A DNA stretch of 64,000 nt from contig NZ_SHKM01000001.1 of NCBI RefSeq assembly GCF_004217225.1, positions 1,526,137 through 1,590,136 on the forward strand, written 5' to 3'. Positions 7,742 to 53,255 of the stretch are shown in pieces; the first letter of the stretch is position 1; each line of letters starts with the position of its first letter. Both the position numbers and the translations under genes were made by a program. The stretch is from Azospira oryzae (lineage in GTDB: Bacteria > Pseudomonadota > Gammaproteobacteria > Burkholderiales > Rhodocyclaceae). The notes under the pieces were generated by a model. The model worked only from the letters and a program-made list of their open reading frames with translations. It did not search any database and was not told the origin of the DNA.

Positions 7742-7779
7742 GCGGCGGGACGCTCAGGGCATCCCGGTCTGGGAGGCAG

Positions 7780-8145
7780 GAGGGACGGACCTTTCGGCCA
7801 TGGCATGGCGGAGAGGGGCGTCGCTGTTGGGTTGTGGGGCTGGTGCTTTTCGGCAGGGGATATTGCCTGTGAGGCTGAATCCTCAGGCGTGGTGGGTTGA
7901 TTGACCGCTGTGTTCCGCGCCTGACGCGCGGGTTACTTGTTCTTGTCTCGCCAAGAATAAGTAACCAACAAGAAGGCGAGCCCGGTTTGGCGCCCCTGCG
8001 GGGTCCCCTGCGCTACTCGCTTCCGGCGGGGGCTGCGCAACTCGGCCTACGGCCTCAGACAGTGCTCGCCCATTTTCTGCCAGAAGCTCCGTTGCTCGGC
8101 GCCGCACAGGGCGGGATTGGCGCTTGCCGGATTCAGCTATCGACC
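7780..8145 (+). repeat. Repeat A, copy 1 (low-coordinate border of cassette array 1)
   Basis: This stretch of about 366 bases is closely similar to 50250-50620. It starts with a hairpin (7784-7822). A second long hairpin, GGTTACTTGTTCTTG paired with CAAGAATAAGTAACC, lies at 7931-7966. The copies differ at paired positions in that stem, which suggests the structure is kept. Small reading frames inside it look like non-coding by-products. In reverse orientation it also resembles repeat B at the other end of the array, so the array lies between diverged inverted repeats. Confidence 0.8.
7784..7822. repeat. Palindromic (REP-like) hairpin at the outer edge of repeat A1
   Basis: Two 19-base arms around one base (GACGGACCTTTCGGCCATG and CATGGCGGAGAGGGGCGTC) form a long imperfect hairpin. 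Related hairpins occur at 10642-10682, 43012-43065, 49041-49089, 50255-50293 and 53169-53208, several preceded by GGAGGCAG or GGCAG. Four of these lie at the outer edges of cassette islands 1 and 3. Confidence 0.6.
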
Positions 8146-8175: not shown

Positions 8176-8255
8176 GTTCAACGTTAAATTAAGCGGCGTG
8201 CCGCTTGTGGCGCGTCTGAGCGACTGAAGGGAACGGTTTTGATGTGATGTTAGGG
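8176..8255 (-). other. attC site 1c (end of array 1)
   Basis: On the reverse strand the site runs from R'' CCCTAAC (8249-8255) to a perfect R' GTTGAAC (8176-8182), 80 bases, with internal dyad symmetry around GCGGCACGCCGC. It is clearly similar to the attC at 52166-52246 in array 3. It follows the lipoprotein gene and is the last recombination site before repeat A. Confidence 0.8.
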
Positions 8256-8272: not shown

Positions 8273-8602
8273 TCACATCAATTGTTTGACATGTTGAAAG
8301 CTACACGTCGTTGGTGGCGTATCACTCAAGAAACGCCATTTAACAACGACATGATCAGCAGCCCGGATTGATAAAACGTAATCACACTGGTCCGATCTGC
8401 GACTTACAAGTTCATAGGTTTGGGAATTCACTTCACGCCGCTCAAATGACCACTCAATCGGATGGTCATATTTCGGCAATGGCTTTCCGACATATTGATC
8501 CAACACCGTTTCCATATCTTGGTAAGTGACCATCGGAACACAGCCACATAGAAAGCACAGAATCGAGAGAAGAATACCTTTCTCGACGGCAGCCACAAGC
8601 AT
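8273..8602 (-). CDS. Putative lipoprotein, cassette-borne, unknown function
   Basis: The 109-residue product begins with a hydrophobic signal sequence ending in LCFLCGC, whose cysteine at about residue 21 looks like a lipobox. It is therefore probably an envelope lipoprotein. The rest is a small soluble domain with two further cysteines (QCDYV and TCSF) and no family I recognise. The ATG lies just inside the cassette junction, where GTTAGGGAGCCGCGC supplies an AGGGAG ribosome site, so the recombination site itself creates the translation signal. Confidence 0.65.
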   Translation of the reverse strand: MLVAAVEKGILLSILCFLCGCVPMVTYQDMETVLDQYVGKPLPKYDHPIEWSFERREVNSQTYELVSRRSDQCDYVLSIRAADHVVVKWRFLSDTPPTTCSFQHVKQLM

Positions 8603-8610
8603 GCGCGGCT

Positions 8611-8665
8611 CCCTAACGTGGAGCTAATCGGACCTGCGCGGATTTTCGCGCAGGTCCGGTTGAGC
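8611..8665 (-). other. attC site 1b
   Basis: This compact 55-base site has R'' GCTCAAC (8659-8665) and R' GTTAGGG (8611-8617) on the reverse strand. They surround a perfect ten-pair stem, GACCTGCGCG at 8631-8640 with CGCGCAGGTC at 8647-8656. The shape is that of a folded bottom-strand attC substrate for an IntI recombinase. Confidence 0.85.
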
Positions 8666-8709
8666 GCAGACAGACATAGCGATGAGAACTACAACCATAC
8701 CAATTGACC

Positions 8710-9129
8710 TCAAATGATTTTGAAGTACCCCGTGAGATGCCATCCAACTATCCAGCAGATTAGTGAAAAAGCACCGCCGATATATACAACGATGCCACCA
8801 ACGACTGGATCGGCAACTCGCGAAAGAGCCACAACAAGAATTGCGGCAAACCCAAAGGCGGTATTCCCAAGTGTGACGAGAGTGCTGCCGATTTGATGCT
8901 TTTGGCTAGGTGGCGGCCGTGTCAGAGGCGATTTCTCAGTTCGTGATCGGCGACGACCAAATACGAACCACGCAATCAGCGCCATACTAATAATGCCGGC
9001 AAGGCTGCCCGCAAGACGATCAGCAAATCCCAACATCCCAATCAAGGCGGCAAGTAAGGCCCATAGAACCCCACCCGCGATTAGGCATAGACCGAAAAAC
9101 TGAGAGATCAGGATGTTAAGGGGTGGCAT
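8710..9129 (-). CDS. Small four-helix membrane protein, cassette-borne
   Basis: The 139 residues contain four hydrophobic spans (about residues 8-30, 40-58, 85-103 and 110-130) with a basic RRRSRTEKS loop between the second and third. No known family is recognised. It begins 8 bases inside its cassette, without a strong ribosome site, and ends 45 bases before attC 1b. Its membrane character matches most other cassette products here. Confidence 0.65.
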   Translation of the reverse strand: MPPLNILISQFFGLCLIAGGVLWALLAALIGMLGFADRLAGSLAGIISMALIAWFVFGRRRSRTEKSPLTRPPPSQKHQIGSTLVTLGNTAFGFAAILVVALSRVADPVVGGIVVYIGGAFSLICWIVGWHLTGYFKII

Positions 9130-9137
9130 CAGTTGGT

Positions 9138-9207
9138 GCCCAACGTAGAGCTAACCGGCGCTGCGCGGCTTTATCGCGCAGCGTCCGTGTGGACTGCCGG
9201 GTTAGCC
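9138..9207 (-). other. attC site 1a
   Basis: On the reverse strand R'' is GGCTAAC (9201-9207) and R' is GTTGGGC (9138-9144), 70 bases apart end to end. A nine-pair stem joins CGCTGCGCG (9159-9167) to CGCGCAGCG (9175-9183). The potassium-channel gene reads into this site and stops at 9171, giving the tail NPAVHTDAAR. Reading into attC is common for cassette genes. Confidence 0.85.
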
Positions 9208-10076
9208 ATTACTTTCGAAAATTCCTCTTCAAGCAAAAGAATCTGTTGAATTTGAAACTTCACGGTTCGGTAAAGAAGAATGGCCGGTGTAATAACGTTG
9301 GATTGATAAGCCTCTCCATCGGGGCATTGCTCATGTTCTTTAATCAGTTCCTCCAAGGTGTCTTTCAGCAGCTTTCCTCCACCCCCCATTGTTTCGTATG
9401 AGTAGAGTGCTTCACGGACATCTTGAGCTTTTGATATGGTTAAAAAATCTACGACGCCTTGATGAATGGCTGGGTACTCAAGCAAATCGAAATTTGCGAT
9501 CAGAAATTTGAATTCATTTAACACTGCATCCAGTTTTTCAAAGTAATGATGGATGACTGGTTTGCTAAATCCGCTTTTAGTCAGCAGCGATGGCCTGTAA
9601 ATATCTTGGAGATCAGAAAAAAGGAATTCACTATTTGGTTTTTTCTTGCCCTGTCTCTTACTCATAGGAGTGGTGAGTTCGACGAGCGCTATTTCATAAT
9701 CGAAGATCACTACATGCAAATATTTGTAGAAACTGGCCAAGCTATGAAGGTTTTTTACCTGAATGCGACGAGTAATTGACGCCTCTTGCTGCGCCTCGAT
9801 TCGACTGGCAAACGATTGCCACAGAGAACTCAAAAACAAACCAATTATCACAATGCCAAATATGGCTTCACTCGCAACAATCATCATAGCCAGTTCAGAT
9901 TTTGGAGTTATGTCTCCGTAGCCAAGCGTGGTTATCGTTACCGTGCTGAAATAGATGCTCTTGAGCAGCGTGAAATCTGTCTCCTTTGTCGCATCAGGGA
10001 TGTATCGATATGCGAACGCGTAAGCAACTATCAGAAATAGATAGATTGCCAGGAAAAACGAAGGACGTAATTTCAT
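9171..10076 (-). CDS. Two-helix potassium channel, cassette-borne
   Basis: This 301-residue protein has TM1 at about 7-25, a pore helix, the potassium selectivity filter TTLGYGD at 49-55 and TM2 at about 62-84. A 210-residue cytoplasmic domain of no family I recognise follows. It fits the Ion_trans_2 group, which forms tetrameric inner-membrane K+ channels. AGGA seven bases before the ATG supports the start, 19 bases inside the cassette junction. The last residues are encoded by attC 1a. An ion channel is an unusual cassette product. The gene is AT-rich compared with its neighbours, consistent with acquisition. Confidence 0.85.
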   Translation of the reverse strand: MKLRPSFFLAIYLFLIVAYAFAYRYIPDATKETDFTLLKSIYFSTVTITTLGYGDITPKSELAMMIVASEAIFGIVIIGLFLSSLWQSFASRIEAQQEASITRRIQVKNLHSLASFYKYLHVVIFDYEIALVELTTPMSKRQGKKKPNSEFLFSDLQDIYRPSLLTKSGFSKPVIHHYFEKLDAVLNEFKFLIANFDLLEYPAIHQGVVDFLTISKAQDVREALYSYETMGGGGKLLKDTLEELIKEHEQCPDGEAYQSNVITPAILLYRTVKFQIQQILLLEEEFSKVMANPAVHTDAAR

Positions 10077-10090
10077 TGACGGTCCTAATG

Positions 10091-10696
10091 GCTAACTAGT
10101 AGTAGACGACAAAAGTGTCCAATAAAAACGGGACTGTCCAATATCCTGGAACACCGGACAGCCGAAGCGATTGGCCCGCAACGGATTCAGCAAACCTTCC
10201 GTTTACTGGCCTCACTAAAAATCCGTTAAACCGGACAGCCTCAAAGTTACCGTCGGCACACTCACACCGCAACCAAAAGTTGCAAATAGCATATCCCAAA
10301 GAACTACCCCCCAGCCCCAACCGGTGCGATCACCTTCGCCACGCCACCGGTTTTCCATCCCCTTCCCCCCCCGCCGAGCAGCGCAAGGCGGGCGGGGGGC
10401 TTTCGGCGAGGACTGCTTGAGGCCCGAAGGGCCGAGTTCCGCAGCCGCCCCGACCGACTGAGCAGCGCAGGAAAGCCCGCAGGGCCGGGGGTGAGGGTTC
10501 CCCTTCTTTTGGTTCCTTTTCTTGGGGAAGCAAGAAAAGGAACACGCGCGGCGGCGCGGAACCCGGCCGCAAAATCGACAAACCACGCCCCGCCAATCCC
10601 CAGAAACAAAGCCCCAAAACCACCCCGCCACCAAACAAAAAGGACGGCCATCTCCACCATGCCCCGGCGGAAATGCCCGTCCTTCCTGCCTCCTGG
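10091..10696 (-). repeat. Repeat B, copy 1 (promoter-proximal border of array 1)
   Basis: About 606 bases here match 52613-53220. The inner part (10091-10340) has two direct copies of ACCGGACAGCC (10153-10163 and 10230-10240). It ends precisely at the first cassette junction, CTAAC, where an integron attI would be. The outer part is a diverged inverted relative of repeat A, with a perfect 13-pair hairpin (GTTCCTTTTCTTG, 10512-10543). A possible 74-codon frame on the reverse strand changes many residues between the two copies, so the segment is probably not coding. It covers most of the gap between the channel and lipoprotein genes. Confidence 0.8.
10642..10682. repeat. Palindromic (REP-like) hairpin at the outer edge of repeat B1
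   Basis: GGACGGCCATCTCCACC pairs with GGCGGAAATGCCCGTCC across a seven-base loop. Read in reverse complement it resembles the hairpin at the outer end of repeat A, so the two ends of the island mirror each other. Confidence 0.55.
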
Positions 10697-22267: not shown

Positions 22268-22352
22268 CGCCCCCCTGCCCTGCAACCCAATCCCCACGCC
22301 CCTCCCAGCCAGGCCATGCCGGAGAAGCGCATCCCGCCTGCCTCCCAGGCCG
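22268..22352 (-). repeat. Partial inverted relative of repeat A next to array 2
   Basis: On the reverse strand this stretch carries CTGGGAGGCAGG, then GGCATGGCCTGGC, GAGGGGCGT and TTGGGTTG in the same order and spacing as 7770-7840 of repeat A. The match is imperfect, roughly two thirds by eye. It places a member of the same repeat family beside the third cassette array. The rest of the gap before the helicase gene holds only the promoter below. Confidence 0.5.
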
Positions 22353-22404
22353 GCACCCGCAAACTCCCCATTTCCCCCATACCGGCCTCCGGCTCGCATG
22401 GGTG

Positions 22405-49010: not shown

Positions 49011-49040
49011 GGCCGTCACGAAGCACCGCCCTGGAAGGCA

Positions 49041-49091
49041 GAAGGGACGGGCCTCCCCACCGTGCAACGGTGGGAAAGCCCGTCCCTTCTT
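49041..49091. terminator. Bidirectional hairpin terminator, related to the REP-like family
   Basis: GAAGGGACGGGC pairs with GCCCGTCCCTTC, and an inner CCCACCG/CGGTGGG stem closes on TGCAA. The first arm, preceded by GGAAGGCA, resembles the outer end of repeat A. It lies between the convergent efflux and acetyltransferase genes. Confidence 0.75.
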
Positions 49092-49134
49092 GTTGGTGGC
49101 GATGGTGCCGCTGCCAGGCAGCGGACCGCTACGG

Positions 49135-49723: not shown

Positions 49724-49981
49724 TTACTGGTTGTCGAGCTGGCCGCGCACGGCCCCCAGGCCGGCCCGGTTGATCCGGTAAGGCCGGCCGTCCAGGGAGG
49801 CGATGAGGCGCTTGGCCTTCAGCTTCTTGAACACCGGCAAGGTGCAGTCGCTGAGGACGAAACCTTCGCGGGTATAGCAATCGACGTGGGTAATGCGGCC
49901 GGAAGCATCGCGGTGATGTTCGATATGGCCGCCTTTGGCGAGGACGTGCAACGTCCGCTGCTCGGGCTTGGAAAGATTCAT
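49724..49981 (-). CDS. yjhX: TopAI/YjhX-family toxin
   Basis: The 85-residue protein, starting [18 protein letters not shown], matches YjhX in length and in the segments [27 protein letters not shown] and PYRINRAGL. In E. coli YjhX (TopAI) inhibits DNA topoisomerase I and is neutralised by YjhQ. A nine-residue longer frame is rejected because the family starts at MNLS. The pair sits about 700 bases from cassette array 3. Confidence 0.85.
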
Positions 49982-50249
49982 GTTGGATTGTTCCGCAATC
50001 AAATGCACACACGACGGCAGCCTCCGAGAGGCGCCATCGACGCTATGGGCATATCGATAACTCGCGGCCGGCGGGGCCAGACGGAGTTATCGGATTGCGG
50101 CAATCTCCAACATACAGACCTAACTCAAATGGAATGGGCTTGCCCGTTTGCCGGGCAGGCGCGAATGATAGCGCTCCCCTCGGGGCGGGGCAATCGGGGC
50201 GGTGTCGGGCAGGGCGCCGCCGGACGCCTGGCACCCGGCCTGCAAGGCC

Positions 50250-50620
50250 GGAGGGACGGCCCTTCCAGCCATGGCATGGCGGAAGGTGGCGTCGTTATTG
50301 GGTGGTGGCACTGTTGTTTCCGGGACTGCGGGCGAGTTGTTGCCGGTCTGAGTCTTCGGGCGTAGTGAGTTTAGTGACCGCTGCGTTCCGCGCCTGACGC
50401 GCGGGTTACTTTCTTTTGCTTCGCCAAAAGAAGAGTAACCAAAGAAAAGGCGAGCCCGGTTTGGCGCCCCTGCGGGGTCCCCTGCGCTACTCGCTTCCGG
50501 CGGGGGCTGCGCAACTCGGCCCTACGGGCCTCAGACAGTTCTCGCCCTTTTTCCGCCGCAAGCTCCGTTGCTCGGCGCCGCACAGGGCGGGATTGGCGCT
50601 CTCTGATTTTGCTATCGACC
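50250..50620 (+). repeat. Repeat A, copy 2 (low-coordinate border of cassette array 3)
   Basis: This 371-base segment is a diverged copy of 7780-8145, in the same position relative to its cassette array. It opens with the hairpin at 50255-50293. The inner hairpin at 50404-50440 keeps its pairing through compensating changes relative to copy 1. The region between the yjhX start (49982) and this repeat shows no gene-like frame, and frames within the repeat look non-coding. Confidence 0.8.
50255..50293. repeat. REP-like hairpin at the outer edge of repeat A2
   Basis: GACGGCCCTTCCAGCCATG and CATGGCGGAAGGTGGCGTC pair around one base. Relative to copy 1 several changes occur on both arms together, as expected for a conserved structure. 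Confidence 0.6.
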
Positions 50621-50632
50621 CAGCCAGTCAGA

Positions 50633-50731
50633 GGCTAAGGTTGAAGGCCCTTGGCTGCAGGAACCGCGCAGCGGTGGTGAGAATCCACAAGTAAAACTTG
50701 CAGAGCTTTCCACTCGGCTAAGTCGTTAGGC
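50633..50731 (-). other. Degenerate attC site 3d (array end)
   Basis: R'' GCCTAAC (50725-50731) is perfect and contains the stop codon of the gene before it. The proposed R' is CTTAGCC (50633-50639), one base from GTTRRRY. The inner arms CTGCAAG and CTGCAGG pair poorly. It is probably decayed. Confidence 0.5.
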
Positions 50732-51145
50732 AATCTGTTGATGAGGGAAGCGGGCCGTAAAAAACTCAACAAGACGGTCAAAGTCGTCGTGGGGCATCAT
50801 GTCTCGAAGCTGCGTACCGACCCTTTTCCCATCTTTGAGGACGAAGGTCAATTTGTGCTGACTGAATTCGACCGAACCAATCCTCTCCGCTGGAATGGCG
50901 AGCCTGTAGCCAACCAAAACCACGATGCCCGTTTCATCATAGTCGGCAATCGGGAGGTGTCGGTGGTACTTCACCAGATGGAAAGACTTGATGCCAATGG
51001 AAATGCAGTAGGCCCCAAGGAATATAAAGAAGACTCCCTTCGACAAGTCATAGACGAGAAAGTAGAACAACACTGCGAGAGCCGTGTGAACGACTAGCTT
51101 CGGCTTCAGCTTGCCGATGAACTCGGATGAGTAGTAGATCTTCAT
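50726..51145 (-). CDS. Small membrane protein with PH-like tail, cassette-borne
   Basis: The 139-residue product has two membrane spans (about 17-36 and 38-55) and a C-terminal beta-rich domain (AIPAERIGSVEFSQHKLTFV). That arrangement resembles membrane-anchored PH-like or YcxB-type proteins, but no specific family is claimed. It stops inside the R'' box of attC 3d. Its leader within the cassette is about 45 bases with no clear ribosome site. Confidence 0.62.
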   Translation of the reverse strand: MKIYYSSEFIGKLKPKLVVHTALAVLFYFLVYDLSKGVFFIFLGAYCISIGIKSFHLVKYHRHLPIADYDETGIVVLVGYRLAIPAERIGSVEFSQHKLTFVLKDGKRVGTQLRDMMPHDDFDRLVEFFTARFPHQQIA

Positions 51146-51190
51146 GATATTTGAGGGTTACAGGCAATAGATGAAAACAGGGGCAAGACT

Positions 51191-51280
51191 ACCTAGCGTT
51201 GTAGGTAAGGGGCGCTGCGCAGCGGTTTATCGCGCAGCGCCCAGTGACCGAAGGGAGCGGCCTTGAGCGCAATGTTAGGG
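51191..51280 (-). other. attC site 3c
   Basis: R'' is CCCTAAC (51274-51280) and R' is GCTAGGT (51191-51197). A perfect ten-pair stem joins GGCGCTGCGC (51211-51220) to GCGCAGCGCC (51232-51241). The stem and loop closely match attC 1a at 9159-9183 in array 1. Confidence 0.78.
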
Positions 51281-51281
51281 G

Positions 51282-51551
51282 TCATTGCTGTAGCCAAAGC
51301 ATGGCAAGGAAGAAAAGTGCGACAACAACAGTGAGCCAACGAGCCCGGCGTGGGTTAGTTGGGGAAATGCCATACAAATTGTTGAGGCGTAGCTTTTCAG
51401 TAAACGACATTTTTGTAGGAAATGGCCCAACTAAATCTTCGAGGGCTTTAACTTGCTGATGCGGGTTATTGCCGAGTACATCGTTCGCACGAAGGAGTGC
51501 AAAAACGATGGCAATAAGAGCGCCAACAAGGAGCAAATCGAAAAGCGGCAT
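51282..51551 (-). CDS. Small two-helix membrane protein, cassette-borne
   Basis: The start MPLFDLLLVGALIAI at 51551, with AGAGG five bases upstream, gives 89 residues. A longer frame would read through attC 3b and is rejected. There is one membrane span at each end and a polar middle (PHQQVKALEDLVGPF). No family is recognised. Its stop is one base before R'' of attC 3c, a tight fit typical of cassettes. Confidence 0.65.
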   Translation of the reverse strand: MPLFDLLLVGALIAIVFALLRANDVLGNNPHQQVKALEDLVGPFPTKMSFTEKLRLNNLYGISPTNPRRARWLTVVVALFFLAMLWLQQ

Positions 51552-51556
51552 GAGAC

Positions 51557-51655
51557 CTCTAGCGTTCGACGTGAGGGGCCGCCGGAGCGGCGAAGCCGCG
51601 GAGGGTACCTGCCGGCCGCGCCGGCAGGCGGTCCCTCTCGACGGAGTTGTTAGAG
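51557..51655 (-). other. attC site 3b
   Basis: R'' is CTCTAAC (51649-51655), exactly complementary to the start of its cassette. R' is GCTAGAG (51557-51563). The 99-base site holds two GC-rich inverted repeats, including CTGCCGGC...GCCGGCAG and GCGGCGAAGCCGC. This R' has GCT instead of GTT, like the next site. Confidence 0.72.
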
Positions 51656-51658
51656 CGC

Positions 51659-52162
51659 TTAGCTGACACTCCAAACCAAGCAGAAATAGGCATAGCTATT
51701 GGGCGCAACAATCCATGTTTCCAACTGGCTTGGCCAGCCATGAGAGTCATGAAGCCGAAAATGGATTTTGCCTTCCGGGTAGGACGAGTGGATTACATCA
51801 AGAAAGTTCGCAACGGTGGCTTCGGCGTCCGCGGGGCGGGTTACGGTGGTGTCGCCGATGACGCACGCGAAGAAGTCCACCAACTCGGCAGGGGATGTCA
51901 CTGCCTCAGGCATTTGCTGGGAAGCGACACCATCGTTTACCTCAAAATCGCTAACAAGCATGCCGCCTTCCGGAAATGCCTTTTTTGAAATGGCCGACAG
52001 CCCGTCGAGAAATTCAAGTAGAGGTGTAGGCAACTCTCGCGTCGGTGTTAGGCCATTGGAGTCTATACGCGACACCGTTTCGAGCTTCCAGTGCGAGAGG
52101 GTGCTGTCACCCACCACGGCTTCGAGAAGTGTTTCCATCAGGCTTCGGCGGTCGTGGGCCAT
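51659..52162 (-). CDS. Hypothetical soluble protein, cassette-borne
   Basis: The ATG at 52162, three bases after the cassette junction, gives 167 residues (MAHDRRSLMETLLEAVV). A longer frame would start inside the attC of the previous cassette and is rejected. The product is acidic and soluble, with no signal peptide, membrane span or recognised domain. MPEAVTSPAELVDFFACVIG and a Trp-rich C-terminus stand out. The ribosome site is weak, so a later Met (METLL) is possible. Confidence 0.58.
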   Translation of the reverse strand: MAHDRRSLMETLLEAVVGDSTLSHWKLETVSRIDSNGLTPTRELPTPLLEFLDGLSAISKKAFPEGGMLVSDFEVNDGVASQQMPEAVTSPAELVDFFACVIGDTTVTRPADAEATVANFLDVIHSSYPEGKIHFRLHDSHGWPSQLETWIVAPNSYAYFCLVWSVS

Positions 52163-52165
52163 GCG

Positions 52166-52246
52166 CTCTAACGTGCAAAGTAAATGGCGTGCCGCTTGCG
52201 GCACGTCCAAGCGCCTGCAGGGCGCGGTTTGACTGGGATGTTAGAT
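52166..52246 (-). other. attC site 3a
   Basis: R'' is ATCTAAC (52240-52246) and R' is GTTAGAG (52166-52172). The inner GCGTGCCGCTTGCGGCACG palindrome (52188-52206) forms a strong stem. The whole site is similar to attC 1c at 8176-8255. Confidence 0.8.
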
Positions 52247-52247
52247 T

Positions 52248-52607
52248 TCATTTCAGTAGCCACTGCCCAAGGGCGAGAAATGACGCTGCAGTTGCAGCCC
52301 CCAAAAACCAAACCAACATTCTTCCCCAGACCCTGAGCAAGAAATTAAGACCTTCTCGATTGGTGGGGAAATATACGAGCGGAATTTTTGCTTTCAGTTC
52401 GCTTGGCGAAAAACTCTTCACGTCGATAACAAACAGCAAGACGCTAATGAAGAAGTACGCAGCGACCACCGGAAACATTCCTTTTTCGGATGAGCCAGCG
52501 GGGAGCACTTCAAAGTGCTCAAGTGCTTCGAGAACTGCGATGAGTACGACCAGTGATATGCCCGTTATGAAGGCAGATTTACGCGTGGCAGTTGGGAAAG
52601 CGAGCAT
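52248..52607 (-). CDS. Small three-helix membrane protein, first cassette of array 3
   Basis: The 119-residue product has spans at about 13-30, 44-62 and 96-115, with a positively charged loop between the last two. No family is recognised. The ATG is only ten bases inside the cassette junction and has no ribosome site, which suggests weak or leaderless-like translation, or dependence on an upstream frame. It stops one base before attC 3a. Confidence 0.62.
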   Translation of the reverse strand: MLAFPTATRKSAFITGISLVVLIAVLEALEHFEVLPAGSSEKGMFPVVAAYFFISVLLFVIDVKSFSPSELKAKIPLVYFPTNREGLNFLLRVWGRMLVWFLGAATAASFLALGQWLLK

Positions 52608-52612
52608 AAAAT

Positions 52613-53220
52613 TCTAACTAGTAGTAGACGACAAAAACGTCCAATAAAAATGGGACTGTCCAATATCCTGGAACACCGGACAGCCAAATCGATTGTCCCG
52701 CAACGGATTCAGAAAACCTGCCGTTTACTGGCCCCACTAAAAATCCGTGAAACCGGACAGCCTCAAAGTTACCGTCGGAACACCCACACCGCAACCAAAA
52801 GTTGCAAATCGCATATCCCAATAACCTAAATCACCCACCCCAAACCGGTGAGAACACCTTCGCTACGCCACCGGCTTTCCATCCCCTTCCACCCCCGCCG
52901 AGCAGCGCAAGGCGGGCGGGGGGCTTTCGGCGAGGACTGTCTGAGCCCCCGCAGGGGGCGAGTTCCGCAGCCGCCCCGCTCGGCTGAGCAGCGCAGGGAA
53001 GCCCGCAGGGCCGGGGGTGAGGGTTCCCCTTCTTTTGGTTCCTTTTCTTGGGGAAGCAAGAAAAGGAACACGCGCGGCGGCGCGGAACCCAGCCGCAAAA
53101 TCAGCAAACCACGCCCAACCAATCCCCCAGTAACAAAGCCCCCCCCCACCCCGCCACCAAACAAAAAAGACGGCCATCCCCACCATACCCCGGTGGAAAC
53201 GCCCGTCCCCATTGCCTCCC
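52613..53220 (-). repeat. Repeat B, copy 2 (promoter-proximal border of array 3)
   Basis: This is the counterpart of 10091-10696. The inner 230-250 bases keep both ACCGGACAGCC direct repeats (52675-52685 and 52752-52762) and stop exactly at the cassette junction CTAAC. The outer part carries the perfect GTTCCTTTTCTTG hairpin (53038-53069) and a border hairpin (53169-53208). It fills the gap between the first cassette gene and the reductase gene. The short reverse-strand frame it contains is probably not coding. Confidence 0.8.
53169..53208. repeat. REP-like hairpin at the outer edge of repeat B2
   Basis: GACGGCCATCCCCACC pairs with GGTGGAAACGCCCGTCC. Compared with copy 1, changes on the two arms partly compensate. 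Confidence 0.55.
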
Positions 53221-53255
53221 GGGCCAATGCCCGGATCAGATCAACACCGTCGAGA

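Follow-up and report, generated by a model that had tools for sequence, protein, structure and literature searches.

The island at 50.25-53.22 kb of the window, the 64,000-nt stretch of Azospira oryzae DNA that we analysed, is probably a decayed integron that was captured once between two repeats, A and B, and spread with them, its cassette array being served in trans by a lone integrase. In the course of events that we favour, an integron fragment consisting of attI and a short cassette array, its intI already lost, would have been captured once between A and B, and the A-B composite would then have reached several places in the chromosome, every copy retaining, immediately inside B, an attI that looks usable. 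The single intact IntI of the genome would most likely insert and remove cassettes at the island attI in trans, so that one integrase would serve several dispersed arrays. The A-B unit as a whole would have been moved or exchanged either by an enzyme acting in trans or through homologous recombination between its conserved arms, and both fit.

The anatomy of this island, which we call I2, could be observed directly. At the outer edge of A, a terminator-like hairpin with a T-rich tail is evident in the sequence (50249-50296), and hairpins resembling it are found at the left edges of other islands. The A arm itself (50375-50600, plus strand) is the left end of an inverted-repeat element and contains the hairpin GGTTACTTTCTTTTG..CCAAAAGAAGAGTAACC. 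All that follows up to and including B is on the minus strand. The right end of the element is the B arm (52896-53099), with a second terminator-like hairpin at its outer edge (53162-53222). Inside B lies what appears to be a remnant of the attI-to-intI spacer (52685-52830), which includes AAACCGGACA and no recognisable intI coding sequence, followed by a copy of attI (52613-52684) with 90% identity to that of the intact intI on contig 3; the cassettes diverge directly past CTACTACTAGTTA. Cassette 1, the first past attI, encodes 119 aa (52248-52607); cassette 2, 167 aa from its ATG (51659-52162); cassette 3, 89 aa from its ATG (51282-51551); and cassette 4, 139 aa (50726-51145), its attC being degenerate or missing. 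None of the four genes belongs to a Pfam family. The first three cassettes are separated from their neighbours by attC sites at 52168-52244, 51559-51653 and 51193-51278, scoring 62.3, 34.4 and 53.9 bits with our attC model, the first and last of which were included in its training set and the second was not.

At both extremes of the island, the last ~60-70 nt are of the hairpin-plus-T-run, terminator-like type and are partly sequence of the host locus; in a sister island, I1, homology with Azospira sp. I13 restarts within the right-hand terminator-like edge. Similar hairpins recur at gene ends in the genome, for example at window positions 49030-49101 and 22285-22353, as well as at the outer edges of the islands. 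The left neighbour of I2 (49834-50113) has a counterpart of 100% identity in Azospira sp. I13, placed there between the left and the right neighbour of I1, although the other flanks are 84-97% identical. Such complete identity would point to a recent transfer or rearrangement.

A previous reading of the window, made from the sequence only, had claimed that I2 repeats the plan of the island at 7.78-10.70 kb (I1), with the same flanking repeats in the same order and orientation, the same direction of genes and no cassette gene in common. All of this was borne out. Repeat A aligns at 83% over 398 nt (50230-50620 with 7758-8145) and repeat B at 90% over 610 nt (52614-53222 with 10092-10696), and the two alignments are collinear, with an offset of 42.47-42.53 kb and with order and orientation conserved. 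I1 has its A arm at 7901-8124 (plus strand) and, on the minus strand, cassette genes at 8273-8602 and 8710-9129, a first cassette gene encoding a 301-aa ion-channel protein (Ion_trans_2; 9171-10076), an attI copy (10091-10162) and the B arm (10372-10573). The attC model finds three sites in I1, as in I2, all on the minus strand (8178-8253, 8613-8673 and 9140-9205), none of which was in the training set. In both islands every cassette gene is on the minus strand, running from B to A, and a blastp comparison of 64 proteins from 17 loci found no cargo protein common to any two loci at E≤1e-3.

The likeness of I1 and I2 is not a matter of chance, because the 3.45-Mb genome contains exactly six A/B pairs, constant in order and relative orientation, and neither repeat on its own. 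The sequence-only reading had itself named what would speak against it, namely A and B lying mostly apart from attC sites and in random combinations; the six pairs, with no singles, do not refute it. The other four pairs are I3 (C3:175938-178447) and I5 (C1:1417681-1423275), both with attC cassettes, and I4 (C1:97716-96090) and I6 (C2:563357-561876), each of which encloses one low-GC gene and no attC site detectable with the attC model. Further complete pairs occur in Azospira sp. I13 (four) and in a third Azospira (one), and all 11 are loaded, with cargo genes running from B to A in every one; genome G081 holds a single A arm without a partner. Whether each pair lies next to attC sites had been suggested as a check, and the answer is mixed: attC cassettes are present in four of the six pairs here (I1, I2, I3 and I5), as well as in the two armed islands of Azospira sp. 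I13 that bear attI, and are missing from the remaining two and from most pairs of the wider family, so attC is not the defining partner of A and B.

It is the inner end of B that identifies the islands as integrons. Its first 71 nt match, at 90%, the attI that precedes the genome's sole intact intI, which lies on another contig (C3:84197-85135, 330 aa, TIGR02249 at 478 bits against a cut-off of 265); because B ends inwardly in a copy of this attI, we regard the islands as integrase-less integron arrays in which attI has been kept. No integrase profile match was found near I1 or I2. In ten arrays from the two species, the common sequence extends up to CTACTACTAGTT[A/G] and is followed by unrelated genes, as would be expected of insertion at one crossover point, which suggests that IntI may act on the island copies of attI. 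The junction between B and attI is collinear in I1, I2, I5 and two islands of Azospira sp. I13, and therefore points to one capture. The 10-nt motif AAACCGGACA lies 134 nt from attI in the islands and 137 nt from it in the intact integron, the distance at which intI begins there, and is weak support for an intI remnant since it is also present within the attI of the intact locus; for the same reason, we rejected the survival of any intI coding fragment in the armed islands, where the motif is all that we found.

Some attI copies lack arms. Array X of this genome (G000:C2:302172-305334) has six attC sites and an attI copy followed by ~18 nt of the start of intI, and would appear to be an integron whose integrase was lost in place; an arm-less attI copy in Azospira sp. 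I13 (L099) likewise keeps ~18 nt of the intI start. Two further integrase-less arrays, Y and Z (G000:C1:460500-467500 and 1404500-1411500), have two attC sites each and neither attI nor arms. Since X lacks arms, and Y and Z lack both arms and attI, arms are not needed for dispersed arrays, which speaks against our favoured explanation. In another genus, an attI-like site (75%) immediately precedes a Type II restriction-modification pair (L117:2208-4622; PADLOC REase_II 501 bits, MTase_II 204 bits), on a contig with neither intI nor arms.

The arms have a wider distribution than the arrays. A and B are diverged inverted copies of each other (71-76%), and repeat A has matches in 77 of 250 genomes and 40 of 121 genera of the order. 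Searching with an arm profile retrieved mostly inverted pairs, usually tightly spaced (30-350 nt). Elsewhere in the family, 27 of 31 pairs are 33-284 nt apart and the other four are loaded with 0.7-1.4 kb; among the pairs of the order that we read, two of 10 were loaded. The arms form two groups, A and B (100/99), and of the 16 pairs resolved in other genera, 14 combine one A with one B (shuffle p 0.005), which together indicate an old element whose two ends are distinct. At two loci of a related genus, the pair is either present or cleanly absent. An Rfam scan of the window and of the empty elements revealed no family in the arms, and the plasmid collection gave no real match. In one further genus (L085 and L229), an attC site lies within an arm pair, possibly reflecting a second origin of cassettes within the element. 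Together, these data make possible, short of probable, a mobile element that is spread across the order and has two different ends, normally an empty inverted pair of ~500 nt, that acts as a holder of swappable cargo and that in Azospira would hold attI arrays fed by one integrase and single genes such as an anti-phage gene.

Comparison with Azospira sp. I13 provided direct observations of sites without arms and of a cargo swap. In that species, the regions matching the flanks of I1, I3, I4 and I5 and the right flank of I2 contain no arms. The I3-matching site is essentially empty (211 nt), and those matching I1, I4 and I5 contain other genes; because some arm-less loci carry other genes, not all of these comparisons represent clean empty sites. 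Conversely, the locus matching the attI-bearing C12 island of Azospira sp. I13 has no arms in our genome, and no counterpart to the flank of its C25 island was found there. The I6 locus carries the element in both species (C13 in Azospira sp. I13), with flanks 95 and 91% identical and arms 91 and 93% identical, around unrelated cargo: a 299-aa protein here and a PD-T7-4 anti-phage protein in Azospira sp. I13. Beyond each arm of this locus, our genome also carries an additional 0.6-0.9 kb that is not shared.

These observations bear on what moves the element. It is possible, if not our favoured wording, that A-B is a true non-autonomous transposon with a left and a right end, mobilised by a transposase encoded elsewhere, and that the arrays and defence genes are passengers. 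This is a version of the capture-and-spread explanation that names the mover, and the two are compatible. The conserved asymmetric ends, which form terminal inverted repeats, speak for it, as does presence/absence polymorphism at the two loci of the related genus and at the I3 site. So does the loading of complete pairs, 11 of 11 in Azospira against six of 41 elsewhere (p 2e-7), a contrast that is indicative only, because we sampled by similarity to the A arm of Azospira. Against it, we recognised no transposase in the cargo of loaded copies, inspection of the alignments by eye gave no clear target duplication, and the Y1 transposase (PF01797), which we considered as the mover and rejected, is absent from three Azospira genomes.

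A less likely alternative is that these are ordinary decayed integrons, in which a chance duplication copied a segment with attI and cassettes, and the arms are common intergenic repeats such as terminators or REP-like palindromes. Plain integrase-less arrays do exist in the same genome (Y and Z), arm-like repeats are common in the order, and intI pseudogenes are common in general (PMC2426708). This explanation is already weakened by the single order and orientation of the six pairs, by the absence of the arms where the island is missing, and by the occurrence of the same type of pair around unrelated single genes at I4 and I6, the latter with cargo that differs between two species. Finally, integron integrases have been described to insert cassettes at non-classical genomic sites, attG (PMC12444791, PMC12901181), but flanking repeats that are mere landing sites of this kind are very improbable here, given that the junction is a copy spanning the length of attI and matches the intI-linked one, and that the matching sister-species sites have no arms.

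Capture of an integron fragment between A and B, followed by spread, thus remains our preferred explanation, and it places the islands near several known systems without equating them with any. Integrase-less arrays and decayed integrons are already known. I1 and I2 each carry at least two attC-bearing cassettes with no intI nearby, as a CALIN does; unlike a CALIN, the islands keep a near-full attI and an array bracketed by A and B, with four sister copies in the genome having both features. They have the attI and the attC cassettes at attI of a complete integron, and no adjoining intI. In this they resemble decayed chromosomal integrons with an intI pseudogene, such as that of Xanthomonas (PMC12444791), from which they differ in forming several dispersed copies inside an inverted-repeat element, with one intact intI elsewhere. 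The paired, inverted, hairpin-rich repeats without coding capacity recall REPINs and REP-associated elements, but the arms are far longer, the copies few, and the REP-associated Y1 transposase is lacking in Azospira. Integrons are also carried on transposons without transposition genes of their own, as in Tn402 derivatives and MITE-flanked class 1 integrons. There too, an attI array lies between inverted ends and is presumably moved in trans; the island ends differ in being asymmetric arms of ~200 nt that also surround non-cassette genes, with no transposase identified.

The sequence-only reading had proposed a recurring platform for gene capture that may be undescribed. Conserved ends with variable contents are indeed found in the six pairs, in the four of Azospira sp. 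I13 and the one of the third Azospira, and in the cargo swap at a single locus, so the platform itself is supported; the capture site, by contrast, is the attI copy just inside B and not A or B, and the A/B element is usually empty. As to novelty, the literature searched contains no account of several attI arrays in one genome inside a common two-ended inverted-repeat element, nor any description of multiple-attI integron arrays, of arms around arrays or of the arm sequence; the composite may thus be undescribed, while its integrase-less arrays and decayed integrons are not new. If one integrase truly feeds dispersed attI arrays, integron capture would not be confined to one place in the genome, and some of the integrase-less arrays that are commonly taken for relics would in fact be active. 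The order-wide inverted-repeat element would be a simple carrier that exchanges single accessory genes, including an anti-phage gene, and that would have been overlooked by annotation because its ends are non-coding.
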